Part shown: piece after piece, positions 5,755-33,724 of the stretch
Position numbering within the stretch: position 1 is the first letter of the stretch
Layout: each line of letters begins with the position of its first letter
Notes under the pieces: model-generated
Told to the model about the DNA's origin: nothing
What the model saw: only the letters and a program-made list of their open reading frames with translations
Database searches by the model: none
Position numbers and translations under genes: made by a program
Assembly: GCA_027624915.1 (NCBI GenBank)
Contig: JAQBTR010000009.1
Span: 1 to 33,969 of the forward strand
Source: a bacterium
GTDB taxonomy: Bacteria > Patescibacteriota > Minisyncoccia > Ryanbacterales > GWA2-47-10b
Length of the DNA stretch: 33,969 nucleotides
Direction: 5' to 3'

Positions 5755-5755
5755 A

Positions 5756-5792
5756 CAAACAAAAAACCGCCCATAGGGCGGTTTTTTGTTTG
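5756..5792. terminator. Bidirectional terminator between pilin and DUF5679 genes
   Basis: A perfect 17-bp stem (CAAACAAAAAACCGCCC and its complement) around an ATA loop, T-rich on both strands. It serves the pilin gene and the convergent zinc-ribbon gene. Confidence 0.93.
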
Positions 5793-5794
5793 TG

Positions 5795-7912: not shown

Positions 7913-8072
7913 AGACCTCTTTTCAAATAATTTTTTCGCTAAAATCTCCTCATTTAGGCTACAACTCGTTAAAAATCTCTCACCAATACCTACGGCATTA
8001 AGCTCAAGATTGTTAACTTCGTTTCGCTCAAAATGAAAATATTTTAATCGAAATCCTATTTTTAAAAGGTCT
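7913..8072. repeat. Family-B palindromic element, copy B1 (in the 16S leader)
   Basis: Arms AGACCTCTTTTCAAATAA (7913-7930) and the partly complementary CGAAATCC...TTTTTAAAAGGTCT (8049-8072). The apex 7957-8033 shares GGCTACAACTCGTTAAAAAT and TTGTTAACTTCGTTTCGCTC with the other B copies. Confidence 0.75.
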
Positions 8073-11164: not shown

Positions 11165-11190
11165 AAAAAAGCCCACTTGTACGGGCTTGA
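11165..11190 (-). terminator. Terminator downstream of the ASCH gene and its palindrome
   Basis: On the minus strand AAGCCCGTACAAGTGGGCTT forms a hairpin running into TTTT. It ends transcription before the khpA promoter. Confidence 0.8.
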
Positions 11191-11210
11191 GCGTGTCCAA
11201 CAACCTCATT

Positions 11211-11335
11211 CCTGCTTGAAATGTCCCGGATCTCGGCTACGACTTGCTAAAAATTCCTCAGAAGATCTTCTGATATTCCTCAAAATTTTTAACTTCGTCT
11301 CGCTCGAGACCAGAACATTTCACCTCGAAAGCAGG
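11211..11335. repeat. Family-B palindromic element, copy B2
   Basis: The arms CCTGCTT+GAAATGT (11211-11224) pair with ACATTTC...AAGCAGG (11315-11335), which carries a 7-nt bulge. The conserved apex runs from GGCTACGACTTGCTAAAAAT to TTTTTAACTTCGTCTCGCTC (11235-11305) and contains the small palindrome GAAGATCTTC. It sits 15 nt past the stop of the ASCH gene. Confidence 0.8.
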
Positions 11336-11730: not shown

Positions 11731-11750
11731 GTGTCCTCCTGGAGCCTATC

Positions 11751-11895
11751 TGAAAACCTCATTCCGGCTCCACATTTCCTGAATTTTGGCTGCAGCTTGT
11801 CAAAAATGCTTCAAAATATCTCCTGATATTCTTCAACATTTTTAACTTCACCTCGCTCAAAATTCAGGAAATGTGTCCTCGAAAGCAGGTTTTCA
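11751..11895. repeat. Family-B palindromic element, copy B3
   Basis: Outer arms TGAAAACCT / AGGTTTTCA (11751-11759, 11887-11895); inner perfect 18-bp arms CACATTTCCTGAATTTTG (11771-11788) and complement (11858-11875). The conserved apex runs from GGCTGCAGCTTGTCAAAAAT to TTTTTAACTTCACCTCGCTC. Confidence 0.88.
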
Positions 11896-11960
11896 CACAA
11901 GCTCTAGCACATTCTGCCGCGAACAATACCACAAAACAAAAATATCTACAATCCTGCAGA

Positions 11961-24510: not shown

Positions 24511-24663
24511 TTGTGCTTCTACTACGATATATCGTAGTAGAAGCACAATATCTAATTCGTCCAAAACAATTAACTATCATATATGATAGTTAGGGTTAAA
24601 TTCTTTATCTACAATTTTGCAACAAATTTCCTTAACTATGATACATCATAGTTAAGGAAATTT
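24511..24663. repeat. Cluster of three near-perfect palindromes after thrS
   Basis: A perfect 38-nt palindrome at 24511-24548 (TTGTGCTTCTACTACGATA and its complement), a perfect 22-nt one at 24571-24592 (TAACTATCATA and complement), and 19-nt arms with a 2-nt centre at 24624-24663 (AAATTTCCTTAACTATGAT). The element AACTATsATA recurs in the last two, and ACTATGATAGT occurs just before the first. None is followed by a clear T-tract. The rest of 24458-24720 shows no gene. Confidence 0.9.
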
Positions 24664-25391: not shown

Positions 25392-26231
25392 ATGCCAAAA
25401 AATACTTCAAACGAACTCCTAGTAATAATAGGACCTACCGCATCTGGCAAAACAAAGGCGGCAATTAAACTTGCCCGAAAATTAAAAACTGAGATTATCT
25501 CAGCTGATTCACGACAAATCTACAAAGGCCTTGATATAGGGACTGCCAAGGCAACCAAAAAAGAAATGGCTAGTGTCCCACATCATTGTATAGATATAGT
25601 AAGCCCTAAAAAAATATTTACGGCGAACGACTTTCAAAAATGTGCAGACAAGGCAATTAAAGCAATTGGCAAAAAAAGTAAGATACCGATTGTTGTTGGT
25701 GGTACAGGGTTTTATATCGAAGCGCTCTTATATGAAGGGTCTACAGCCTCGGTGGACGCCGATTGGAAATTACGTGCCAGGCTCGAAAAAAAAACGACCA
25801 AACAACTTGTGGCGCAACTAAAAAAACTTGATCCAAAGCGTGCCAAAAACATTGATCAACAAAATCGTCGTCGCTTGATACGAGCGATTGAAATTGTTAA
25901 AGCTACTGGAAAACCAGTTCCTGCCATAAAACGAAGGGTGCGATATAATTACAAAATTATCTCACTCGATCCCTCACCAGAAACATTAAAGAAAAATATA
26001 ACCAAGCGAACTCGTCAAATGCTCAAGCGTGGACTCTTGGCTGAAGTAAAACGCGTCTCAAAAGCTCTTTCTAAAAAACGAATGGCAGAACTCGGATTCG
26101 AATATAAATACCCAGCCTTATATCTGGCAGGCGAAATCTCAAAAACTGAAATGATAGAAAAAATAAACACAGAAAATTGGCGCTACGCCAAACGCCAGTT
26201 AACGTGGTTTAAAAAATATCTAACCCACTAA
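25392..26231 (+). CDS. miaA: tRNA dimethylallyltransferase
   Basis: 279 residues. P-loop GPTASGKT (14-21), SADSRQIYKGLDIGTAK, VPHHCID, VVGGTGFYIEALL and the C-terminal NTENWRYAKRQLTWFKK are MiaA landmarks. It transfers a dimethylallyl group to N6 of A37 in tRNAs reading UNN codons. It is shorter than the 300-316 usual, mostly in the swinging insertion domain. No Shine-Dalgarno precedes the ATG. Palindrome A1 begins at the stop codon. With trmD this gives two position-37 tRNA modification genes in the window. Confidence 0.96.
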   Translation: MPKNTSNELLVIIGPTASGKTKAAIKLARKLKTEIISADSRQIYKGLDIGTAKATKKEMASVPHHCIDIVSPKKIFTANDFQKCADKAIKAIGKKSKIPIVVGGTGFYIEALLYEGSTASVDADWKLRARLEKKTTKQLVAQLKKLDPKRAKNIDQQNRRRLIRAIEIVKATGKPVPAIKRRVRYNYKIISLDPSPETLKKNITKRTRQMLKRGLLAEVKRVSKALSKKRMAELGFEYKYPALYLAGEISKTEMIEKINTENWRYAKRQLTWFKKYLTH

Positions 26232-26318
26232 AAGTACACCACTCTCTTCACTCATTCTCGTTCCTCCGAGGTTGAAGCTCTTAGCTTCAAAAACCGTTCA
26301 AGAAAGTGATGCACTTTT
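26230..26318. repeat. Family-A hairpin, copy A1 (after miaA)
   Basis: 19-nt arms (AAAAGTACACCACTCTCTT and AAGAAAGTGATGCACTTTT, 16 of 19 paired) starting in the miaA stop codon. The 44-nt apex 26251-26294 is nearly identical (38 of 44) to that of copy A2 and contains two mini-hairpins, CTCG/CGAG and TGAAGCT/AGCTTCA. It ends in TTTTT. Confidence 0.9.
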
Positions 26319-26346
26319 TGTCTTAAACTGACGATAAAGTAGCGGT

Positions 26347-26464
26347 TTTGTAGTAGTGGCGAACGGGTTATGAGGCTGTAGCGGGCATGGTTCCGTAGGA
26401 GAGCGAAAGCCGAGTCCCTGAGCGAGCACGCTGGGCGAGCGAGGAAAGTGAGCCGTACTACAAA
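26347..26464. repeat. Large hairpin abutting the gatB stop
   Basis: Arms TTTGTAGTA (26347-26355) and TACTACAAA (26456-26464), continued by GGC/GCC, enclose a GC-rich apex of about 90 nt with several GAGCGA-type repeats. It begins on the base next to the gatB stop codon. No second copy of this apex seen in the window. Confidence 0.65.
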
Positions 26465-27919
26465 TTAGCTCCCAAGCTCTTTTAATAAAATCTTACGAAT
26501 AGCCTCTGGGTTGCCTTTGCCGCGCATGCCCTTCATGGTCATGCCAACCATAAACTGAAGTGCATTTGTTTTTCCTTCTTTATATTCTTTAACTGCCTTT
26601 TCATTTTGTGCAATTACCACGCGTACCGCCTCCTCCAAGGCTCCCACATCGGTTGTCTGGAATATGTCTTTATCTTTTGCGATCTCTGTTGGATCTCCCC
26701 CGTTTGTAACCATATGTGCCAAAAGATCCTTGGCTCCGCGTGAAGAAATCTTTTTTGTAGTGATAAGAGTTATGAGTTCAGCAAGATTCTCGGCATCCAT
26801 CTTCATATCACCAAATATTACCCCCGCCTCGTCTAGTGCACGAACCATGTCTGACAACATGTAATTACGTAAAAGTTTATAAGCCCCATCTGAATCGGCG
26901 CCCTCAGTCGACAGCCATTCCTTAAGCTCACTTGCGGCACTCTCATAAAATTCTGATAACTCTTTGTTGCGCACAAAGATTTCTATGGCCTCATCGTCAA
27001 TATTAAACTGCTCTTTAAAGCGTTTTCGCTTGGCAGCAGGCAACTCTGGCACTTGGGTCTTTAGTTCATCGCGAATACTTGCAATCTCAAGCCGTGGCAG
27101 ATCTGGGTCTGGAAAATAACGGTAATCATGTGCCGACTCCTTGATTCTCTGCATAACAGTTTCCTGCTTATTGTCATCCCAACCACGAGTTTGCTGTTCT
27201 ACTTTTTCACCATTTTCGAGAAGTGCCTTCTGTCGTTCTACTTCAAACTCAATTGCCTTCTCGACATTTTTAAATGAGTTAATGTTCTTTAACTCAACCT
27301 TGGTTCCAAGCTCTTGAGTGCCAACTGGTCTAATTGAAACATTAGCCTCTACTCTCATTTCCCCTTTATCCATGCGTGCCTTGGAAGCTCCTGCATACTG
27401 AAAGATGAGCTGTAATTCTTCGGCGGCCTCTCGCGCCTCTTGGGCACTTCGCATATCTGGTTCTGTAACAAGCTCCATGAGCGGGACTCCTGCACGATTA
27501 AAATCAACGAGTGAATTGCCCTCTTTGTCGTGTACAGAGCTTGCCGTATCTTCTTCAAGATGAACTCGTGTAATACGAATGTCTTTGCCAGATGAAATCT
27601 TAATCAAACCCTTTTCAACAAGGGGCAAATCGTACTGCGAAATTTGGTATCCCTTAGGCAAGTCTGGATAAAAATAGTTTTTGCGATCAAACTTACTTGA
27701 GTCAGGAATGGTTGCGCCAAGCGCGTGTCCGACCATAATAACGCGTCGCACAGCCTCCATATTGGCGGCTGGCAACGTTCCTGGATGCCCCATACAAACT
27801 GGACAGATATTAGTGTTTGGGATTGTCTCTTCAGGATTATTGGGCGAACTGCAAAACATCTTGCTACGAGTGGCAAGTTCAGAGTGAATTTCAAGACCAA
27901 TCACCGTCTCATATTCCAT
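26465..27919 (-). CDS. gatB: Asp-tRNA(Asn)/Glu-tRNA(Gln) amidotransferase subunit B
   Basis: 484 residues from the ATG at 27919, where homology starts (MEYETVIGLEIHSELATRSK); a TTG six codons upstream is less likely. The GatB signature (MFCSSPN, CPVCMGHPGTLP with its zinc Cys pair, RKNYFYPDLPKGYQISQYD, DFNRAGVPLMELVTEPD) and the C-terminal YqeY-like tail (TNALQFMVGMTMKGMRGKGNP) are complete. It binds misacylated tRNA and phosphorylates its side chain during transamidation. GatA and GatC are not nearby. Divergent from efp with a 46-nt intergenic region. Confidence 0.97.
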   Translation of the reverse strand: MEYETVIGLEIHSELATRSKMFCSSPNNPEETIPNTNICPVCMGHPGTLPAANMEAVRRVIMVGHALGATIPDSSKFDRKNYFYPDLPKGYQISQYDLPLVEKGLIKISSGKDIRITRVHLEEDTASSVHDKEGNSLVDFNRAGVPLMELVTEPDMRSAQEAREAAEELQLIFQYAGASKARMDKGEMRVEANVSIRPVGTQELGTKVELKNINSFKNVEKAIEFEVERQKALLENGEKVEQQTRGWDDNKQETVMQRIKESAHDYRYFPDPDLPRLEIASIRDELKTQVPELPAAKRKRFKEQFNIDDEAIEIFVRNKELSEFYESAASELKEWLSTEGADSDGAYKLLRNYMLSDMVRALDEAGVIFGDMKMDAENLAELITLITTKKISSRGAKDLLAHMVTNGGDPTEIAKDKDIFQTTDVGALEEAVRVVIAQNEKAVKEYKEGKTNALQFMVGMTMKGMRGKGNPEAIRKILLKELGS

Positions 27920-27929
27920 GGGAACAGTA

Positions 27930-27958
27930 TTGCACAATTGTCATTTTTCGGCTATATT
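27930..27958 (+). promoter_or_regulatory. efp promoter (leaderless start)
   Basis: TTGCAC (27930-27935), 17 nt, TATATT (27953-27958), then seven bases and the ATG. Confidence 0.65.
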
Positions 27959-27965
27959 TGAGTCC

Positions 27966-28535
27966 ATGTTAAGTTACTCTGAACTTCGCGCTGGCATAAT
28001 ATTTGTACTTGATGGAGAGCCATACAAGGTTCTTGAATATAACTTCTTGCGGAAACAACAGCGTAAACCAGTTGCTCAAACCAAAATAAAAAGCTTAAAA
28101 ACTGGCAAGGTAGCAAATAAAACCTTTCACCAAAATGAGTCTTTTGAAGAAGCAATCATAGAAAAGAAACCTGCAAAATATCTATACAGCGGCAAGGGTG
28201 AATACTGGTTCCATAAAGCAGGCAGCCCAAAGGATAGATTTAAGCTTGAAGAAGACGCTGTTAGTGATGTTGCAAAATGGCTCAAGCCAAACATGGAGGT
28301 AGAAATGGATCTCTTTGACGATAAAATAATTGGTATCGAGGTTCCAATTAAAATGGAATTTAAAGTAATTGAGGCGCCACCCAACGTTAAGGGAGATTCT
28401 TCTACTGGTGGCAACAAAGAAGTTGTCATTGAAACTGGCGCAAAAGTAACTGTCCCGATGTTTATAAATCAAGATGATATCATCCGTATAAACACAACGA
28501 CTGGCCTCTACGCTGAGCGCGCAGAAAAGAACTAA
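27966..28535 (+). CDS. efp: Elongation factor P
   Basis: 189 residues from the ATG at 27966; the upstream in-frame extension (27918) would cover the promoter and the gatB start. Three beta-barrel domains are visible: the KOW-like N-terminal one (ELRAGIIFVLDGEPYKVLEY), the central OB domain, and the C-terminal one ending in GAKVTVPMFINQDDIIRINT. EF-P relieves ribosome stalling at polyproline. The domain I loop reads RKQQRKP instead of PGKG, so the Lys normally beta-lysylated is replaced by Gln by alignment, although flanking Lys residues remain. I recall this loop from Parcubacteria EF-P sequences. Hairpin A2 begins in the stop codon. Confidence 0.96.
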   Translation: MLSYSELRAGIIFVLDGEPYKVLEYNFLRKQQRKPVAQTKIKSLKTGKVANKTFHQNESFEEAIIEKKPAKYLYSGKGEYWFHKAGSPKDRFKLEEDAVSDVAKWLKPNMEVEMDLFDDKIIGIEVPIKMEFKVIEAPPNVKGDSSTGGNKEVVIETGAKVTVPMFINQDDIIRINTTTGLYAERAEKN

Positions 28536-28625
28536 AAAAGTAATTATAGTCTATTTACTCATTCTCGTTCCTCCGAGACTGAAGCTTCCACCTTCAAAAA
28601 CTATATAGACTATATTACTTTTTTT
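28534..28625. repeat. Family-A hairpin, copy A2 (after efp)
   Basis: Arms AAAAAAGTAATTATAGTCTA (28534-28553 and onward) and the complementary stretch ending TATATTACTTTTTT (28602-28625), one bulge. The apex 28558-28601 is the same as in copy A1 at 38 of 44 positions. The A/T-rich arm sequence is unrelated to A1. T-run at the end on the plus strand, so it can serve as the efp terminator. Confidence 0.9.
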
Positions 28626-32460: not shown

Positions 32461-32481
32461 GTTTGTGTAGAGCTTAATGCC

Positions 32482-32678
32482 TCATATCATTAGCACTAAA
32501 GTTTCCATTATTTTAACTGCGTCTTGGTAAAAACTTCTCACCAATACTTCCAGCATTAACCTCGAAATTTTTACCTTCGACTCGTGACTTTATTTCCCTG
32601 CGAGGAACGAGCAAACGGAAATAAGAAATACTCTTGTGGTGTTCTAAAATAATGAAAATTCGTTAGGCAATGATATGA
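32482..32678. repeat. Large nested palindrome with family-B and family-D parts (copy B4)
   Basis: Outer arms TCATATCATT / AATGATATGA (32482-32491, 32669-32678); inner CATTATTTTA / TAAAATAATG (32506-32515, 32645-32654). Inside are a diverged B apex (about 32516-32583) and a D stem TTATTTCC/GGAAATAA (32590-32597, 32617-32624), which differs from the 18.97 kb copy by a compensating base pair. It ends 11 nt past the stop of the regulator gene at 32690. Confidence 0.82.
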
Positions 32679-32689
32679 ACCACTAATCT

Positions 32690-33724
32690 CTATGATACAA
32701 GGGTATATGTGCCGTCGTCCAATGATTTAAATATTTTCTTGTTCTGAAGATTGATAAAGACTGTACTTGGCTTTACCTGTCGAATCTGAGATACCTCAGA
32801 TAGAATGTTTTCGCGAGTCATGGCGCCCTTATCTTTGATAAGACGTACGAGTACGTCTTTTACAAATCCAGGTTCATATCCCCAATCACGAAGTGCATAC
32901 AAACCACGCCCAACGAGAACAAATCGTTTATCCTTGATAAGCTCATTGTGTACGGTTTGTACGTGAACAGAACGATTCGTAAAATCGTTAATCCGCTCCG
33001 CAATCTTACGAAAGTGAAGTGGTTCACCCGAACGACTAAGTGCTACAAATGCACTCTCGCGCATACCACGAGGTCGTACGAATGGTGAATTAATGTGTCC
33101 ATATTCGTTCAAAATATTCTTCTCAATTGACTTAGTAAGACCAACATACGTTGAGAGAACTGCTGCTCGAACATCTGAAACACCAGCATCTCGCAAGCAA
33201 ACTGCCAAGTTTGTGTGCAATTCGTTCTCTTTCAAAACCTCGTTAGAGCCATCCAATCCCTTGGTAAAGGCAACTAAAGCTCCCTCAATTTTCTCTACTG
33301 GTGCATCATCAGTGTGCCAACGAAGGTCGAAGTTCTCATCTGCCTTGCGCTTTGAAATGCCATCTGTAAGATCCAAAAACAAGACAAGTACTTTCTTGTC
33401 CTTTACTGAAGCTAGATCAGCGTGCTCTAAAAGCTCAGACTCTGATACTACTCCACCGAGGCGAACCACCATATCAATAAGAGCTGACGCGTACAGTGCT
33501 CCCTCTGCAAAAACAGGAGATTTCTTGATGCGACGACGTGCGTCATTTTCGATCTGTCGTACGCGCTCTCGAGTAATACCTTCTTTCTTTCCTATAGCCT
33601 CAAGCGTTAGGGTTGAAGCCAAACCAATACCATACCGTTGTTTGAGAATGGTACGAGCGCGCGAAGGAAGCTCCCCAAGGAGCTTCGTTGCATGCCTCTC
33701 AAATGTGTTGAAAACATTAACCAT
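32690..33724 (-). CDS. Sigma-region-4-like / HARE-HTH transcription regulator
   Basis: 344 residues. Residues about 15-68 match sigma-70 region 4 (ELPSRARTILKQRYGIG, TLEAIGKKEGITRERVRQIE), the helix-turn-helix that reads -35 boxes. No regions 2 or 3 are present, so it is not a full sigma factor. The middle (about 75-210) is helical and unassigned. Residues about 219-280 resemble a HARE-HTH/RpoE-delta winged helix (AFVALSRSGEPLHFRKIAERI, FVLVGRGLYALRDWGY), and a further winged helix closes the protein. It probably contacts RNA polymerase or promoter DNA. No Shine-Dalgarno. Confidence 0.8.
   Translation of the reverse strand: MVNVFNTFERHATKLLGELPSRARTILKQRYGIGLASTLTLEAIGKKEGITRERVRQIENDARRRIKKSPVFAEGALYASALIDMVVRLGGVVSESELLEHADLASVKDKKVLVLFLDLTDGISKRKADENFDLRWHTDDAPVEKIEGALVAFTKGLDGSNEVLKENELHTNLAVCLRDAGVSDVRAAVLSTYVGLTKSIEKNILNEYGHINSPFVRPRGMRESAFVALSRSGEPLHFRKIAERINDFTNRSVHVQTVHNELIKDKRFVLVGRGLYALRDWGYEPGFVKDVLVRLIKDKGAMTRENILSEVSQIRQVKPSTVFINLQNKKIFKSLDDGTYTLVS

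Follow-up and report, generated by a model that had tools for sequence, protein, structure and literature searches.

The two hairpins that follow miaA and efp in the window, the 33,969-nucleotide stretch of a Ryanbacterales genome analysed here, are members of an uncatalogued family of small repeats with three hairpins each, which appears to have spread among ultra-small bacteria with its core fixed and another stem at nearly every site. The element is repeated, keeps a common fold, occurs patchily and is absent from orthologous sites, and we think it probable that this is a mobile DNA element of Patescibacteria, small and non-autonomous, which works like a Rickettsia palindromic element. Its mobility is suggested by the patchiness, the copy number and the near-identical cores found within a genome. 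No Rfam family matches the element at the gathering score, and the openly available literature (most subscription papers lay outside this search) describes no such element in Patescibacteria or Parcubacteria.

The copies in the window and their neighbouring genes, named from reading of the translations, are listed below; model R1 is a covariance model built from the seven short copies of this genome and model R2 a covariance model of the long form.

25392-26231, plus strand: miaA ORF, upstream of copy 1
26230-26318, plus strand: short copy 1, 3′ of miaA (model R1, 91.5 bits), with P1 arms 26230-26248 and 26300-26318, P2 at about 26257-26270 and P3 at about 26272-26290
26251-26294, plus strand: conserved apex (core) of copy 1, from direct reading and repeat search
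26347-26464, minus strand: tentative diverged full-length relative, tail-to-tail with copy 1 (model R2, weak match, E 0.03-0.05)
26465-27937, minus strand: gatB-like ORF, convergent with miaA
27966-28535, plus strand: efp ORF, upstream of copy 2 (start picked by homology; ORF listed from 27918)
28534-28624, plus strand: short copy 2, 3′ of efp, with A/T-rich P1 arms and the core as in copy 1 (model R1, 76.9 bits)
28558-28601, plus strand: conserved apex (core) of copy 2, from direct reading and repeat search

Direct reading of the sequence bears out the first-pass annotation in most of what it said of these two hairpins. The apices are identical at 38 of 44 positions, and the repeat search extends the match to 26243-26294 and 28550-28601 at 85%; the flanking arms differ between the copies, as the description of swapped stems had it; both left arms start within the TAA of the upstream ORF (26229-26231 and 28533-28535); and both right arms lead into a T-run. 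Pairing is predicted between 26230-26248 and, roughly, 26300-26318 in copy 1, and between 28534-28557 and 28602-28624 in copy 2, with folding z-scores of −2.9 to −7.4 and at most two of 200 shuffles folding equally well. Each element folds well whichever strand is read; for copy 1 the minus strand gives the better fold, since its mismatched P1 positions are A-C on the plus strand but G-U on the minus. The suggestion that several of the six apex differences fall in small loops or swap within pairs held only in part: one pair is compensated (alignment columns 56-80, G-C to A-U), but the differences are mostly non-compensatory, and one of them breaks a P3 pair in copy 2.

A genome-wide search for a 20-nt core had been proposed, with confinement to these two places counting against a wider family. 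The literal 20-mer does occur only at the two window sites, but this test would have misled, because the length of P2 varies among copies; exact and mismatch-only pattern searches were rejected as too strict for the same reason, whereas a gapped search finds more copies. BLAST with the whole element gave five further short copies in this genome (E values from 6.6e-15 to 2.5e-7), and the gapped search gave seven short copies in all, to which model R2 added two full-length ones and the weakly matching, diverged copy at 26347-26464, which has the sequence variant CTTTCCTCG..CCCAGCG..CTCAGGG..ACCATGCC..AACCCG. All seven short copies have the arrangement TTCACTCATTCTC-P2-GAGGTTGAAGCTnnnAGCTTCAAAAACCGTTCA in common, with small changes, and differ in their outer stems. 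One follows miaA, one follows efp, one separates uvrA from uvrC, others precede recA, dnaX and a leuA-like gene (names again from translations), and one is on contig C17; the two full-length and seven short copies occupy unrelated loci. The uvrA/uvrC copy (L083) stands between divergent genes and has no T-run, the recA, dnaX and leuA-like copies stand upstream of the gene within gaps between codirectional genes, and the tail-to-tail arrangement recurs on C17 and in L053. Since the genome holds five more short copies, and the covariation described below exceeds that of shuffles and slid controls, chance is excluded as the source of the likeness between the two window hairpins.

The fold is a three-way junction in which the helices P1, P2 and P3 covary strongly and the junction bases hardly vary. 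Outermost is P1, a stem of about 17-28 bp, which encloses P2, with its 3-nt bulge, and then P3; a full-length copy measures about 125 nt, including 14 nt of each arm, and the short forms have a reduced P3. At 24 of the 34 predicted pairs both sides have changed in some sequences with pairing kept; the covariation score is 0.498, whereas shuffles give 0.179 and slid controls no more than 0.133, and the covariation lies above all 500 shuffles. Most junction positions are conserved at 91-100%, and because these are among the best conserved positions of the element, they may form a protein-binding site, as had been supposed for the apex.

Searches with R1 turned up longer relatives in other families of the class. 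Common to them are P1, CTCATTCTCG, a P2 whose loop is CCAGC, CTCCGAGG, a long P3 bulged by ACCATGC, and, ahead of the right arm, AATCCG. With R2, the element was found in seven of a 379-genome sample of the phylum, that is, in six besides this genome. One of them, G492, has about 23 within 480 kb, every one in a second short form; short forms appear to have multiplied separately in this genome and in G492. Among genomes of the window's family, the four others searched gave no copy with R1; close relatives of this species, sought for an empty site, were absent among the genomes searched (best EFP 57%); and viral contigs gave two pattern matches, neither with the element's fold. Weak matches at L075, L078 and L061:3355 lack the core motif and were judged spurious. 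In one copy of G152 (L079:2633-2755) the distal hairpin of P3 has the orientation opposite to that in other copies, its opposite strand matching model positions 53-96.

In relatives, the element also lies in frame within genes, in both orientations: in MiaA (three genomes), UvrC, an Elp3-like protein and a glycosyltransferase. The clearest case is the Elp3-like gene, in which G089 has 56 residues where four orthologues have a nine-residue linker, a gain of 47 codons; this 141-nt gain is compatible with both arms being new, or with one arm having been copied from the other. The UvrC insert is present in G091 and missing in its congener G070. Similarly, G647, a congener syntenic with G492, lacks both the core and the palindrome at the 5015 and 15373/15541 loci (the comparison leaves out the 11809 locus, which has no alignment to G647), although it may have lost them there. 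The flanks of filled and empty sites are too diverged to define the borders of insertion. MiaA was rejected as an empty-site test; its loop is a hotspot, occupied in relatives by other repeats or variable sequence. Reading frames are open through the element more often than in shuffles (2.6 of six, compared with 1.2 of six).

Arms and core evolve separately. In this genome the arms are 38% identical (shuffles: mean 28%, maximum 37%), compared with 85% for the core. In G492, one arm type recurs in several copies at different places, even with the same outer flanks, while others have unrelated arms, which indicates that the stems travel with the element at least sometimes, yet are often replaced or rewritten; nearly all G492 copies are close to perfect pairing in their stems. 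An RNA helix selected on one strand should favour G-U pairs on that strand. Over all scored copies, P1 contains 32 G-U and 41 A-C pairs (four and six, respectively, in G492, where the misregistered P3 wobble count is left aside), and because G-U is no commoner than A-C, upkeep of the stem as a single RNA strand is argued against; the counts fit pairing at the DNA level, or the neutral decay of initially perfect palindromes, and prove neither. Three G492 copies (L195:850-952, L244:17624-17726 and L237:14634-14737) have a palindrome, CCTGCCTGCCGGCAGGCAGG, inserted in the P1-P2 junction, an observation that counts in favour of a mobile element.

For a mobile element of this kind, we envisage insertion of the unit into gaps between genes and at times, in frame, into genes themselves, where it would add about 50 codons. 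A trans-acting protein would recognise the conserved unpaired bases in a DNA hairpin or cruciform, and P1 would stay paired, or be rewritten, at the DNA level, by fold-back template switching or by exchange of hairpin arms. The more specific proposal, a mobile DNA three-way junction whose core is recognised and whose outer stem is regenerated by these routes, mostly to a near-perfect palindrome at each site, is offered tentatively, as a possibility well short of an even chance.

The first-pass annotation had taken the two hairpins to be intrinsic terminators carrying a conserved cargo loop, the stem ending transcription and the apex binding a protein or being processed in the 3′ untranslated region. 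The conserved apex in swapped stems stands, and the window copies, which run from a stop codon to a T-run, may well terminate transcription. Most copies of this genome have an A-rich left and a T-rich right arm, and those at gene ends with T-runs probably act as terminators also; in other genomes, many copies have a stop codon no more than about 35 nt upstream. A stem followed by a T-run is, however, lacking in the uvrA/uvrC copy, in G434 (stems of 21-28 bp), in G152 and in the in-gene copies. Copies in divergent promoter regions, without T-runs, or in frame within genes in both orientations, and orthologues and congeners that lack the element, argue that it is not mainly a terminator, and the stems show no excess of G-U. 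As a family, these elements do not behave like terminators, the terminator-like position being one address among several, and we regard this explanation as unlikely to account for it.

Nor do we give much credence to the view that only the core moves, hopping into loops of long hairpins or terminators that were there before it, so that the stems belong to the target. The arms in this genome do resemble local terminators; plain perfect hairpins with loops of 3-10 nt, and other large 'cargo' loops in long stems, are present here; and the palindrome nested in the junction of the three G492 copies would suit such hopping. Against it, the congener G647 has no palindrome waiting at the syntenic sites, the arms and outer flanks shared by separate G492 copies point to stems that move too, and the Elp3-like empty sites consist of a 27-nt linker only.

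An immobile structured RNA with a host function, a cis-regulator or small RNA selected at each site, would explain the strong covariation and the near-invariant junction bases. In the codirectional gaps of G492, 11 copies are sense and five antisense, a modest bias (on crude gene calls) that may point to an effect on transcripts or to a preference in insertion. A comparison of the gene neighbours of the copies gave no consistent partner gene, however, and the patchy occurrence, the in-frame presence in unrelated genes and the frequency of A-C mismatches, as common as G-U, make a host RNA improbable. The small palindromic form, and some tail-to-tail pairs like those of BIMEs, suggest a repeat of REP or retro-element type that a Y1 (RAYT) transposase or else a reverse transcriptase mobilises, but this is very improbable, as the Y1 transposase (PF01797) and reverse transcriptase (PF00078) are both absent from seven element-carrying genomes (this genome, G492, G101, G035, G152, G089 and G208). 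Their absence from this genome and from G492 means that the usual REP or retro-element helpers fail to explain the spread; a mobilising helper could possibly come from another cell. A group II intron or other retro-element was also rejected, there being no reverse transcriptase in the hosts and no match to the group II intron family.

Other repeats and hairpins also occur. A second repeat family in the window (7952-8026, 11186-11305, 11739-11907 and 32468-32692), GAGCGARRCGAAGTTAAAAAT..ATTTTTAACRAGTNGTAGC on the minus strand, likewise sits within long stems that vary. Long hairpins, perfectly paired over 17-25 bp and with loops of only 3-8 nt, none of which is expected from shuffled sequence, lie at 2937-2994, 5755-5793, 24511-24548 and 24624-24663. 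G101 (L199, L200 and L201) has five copies of a hairpin, CCAGGTAGTAGAAATTCGAC..GTCGAATTTTCACTACCTGG, with loops of 90-103 nt. An in-frame peptide, LAQRDGASRAIxQQxNMR, in UvrC (L066, in G091), MiaA (L118 and L119) and several other large ORFs suggests further in-frame repeat families.

Among known systems, the closest kind is the Rickettsia palindromic element, repeats of about 150 bp found in frame in unrelated genes and between genes (PMC10969869). The present element is likewise a palindromic repeat of roughly 100-150 bp, both in frame in unrelated coding genes and intergenic, and the likeness is one of kind; here, in a different phylum, a three-way junction combines a fixed unpaired core with outer stems that differ among copies. 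MITEs are small and non-autonomous with terminal inverted repeats, and the pneumococcal SPRITE is terminator-like (PMC10969869, PMC3049150); our element is likewise small and non-autonomous with terminal inverted repeats, but these are not conserved among copies, arms being shared by some G492 copies only, and no parent transposon or target-site duplication was found with flanks as diverged as these. REP and BIME elements with RAYT (Y1) transposases are short, mostly intergenic palindromes (PMC3733652), sometimes paired in opposite orientation as here; the present element is larger, its fold is branched, and the Y1 transposase is absent from this genome and from the richest host. The window copies share with intrinsic (Rho-independent) terminators a long stem and T-run at gene ends, but the conserved part is a branched loop, and many copies have no T-run or lie inside genes.

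In-frame palindromic repeats have been known mainly from Rickettsia, and a comparable family is now seen in a streamlined, deep-branching phylum, where it bears on how conserved proteins absorb some 50 extra residues. A long hairpin at the end of a gene in these genomes is not necessarily an ordinary terminator. The separate evolution of core and stems provides a testable case of how such repeats spread, and, if stems are indeed rewritten, this would be an undescribed route for repeats to spread in Patescibacteria.
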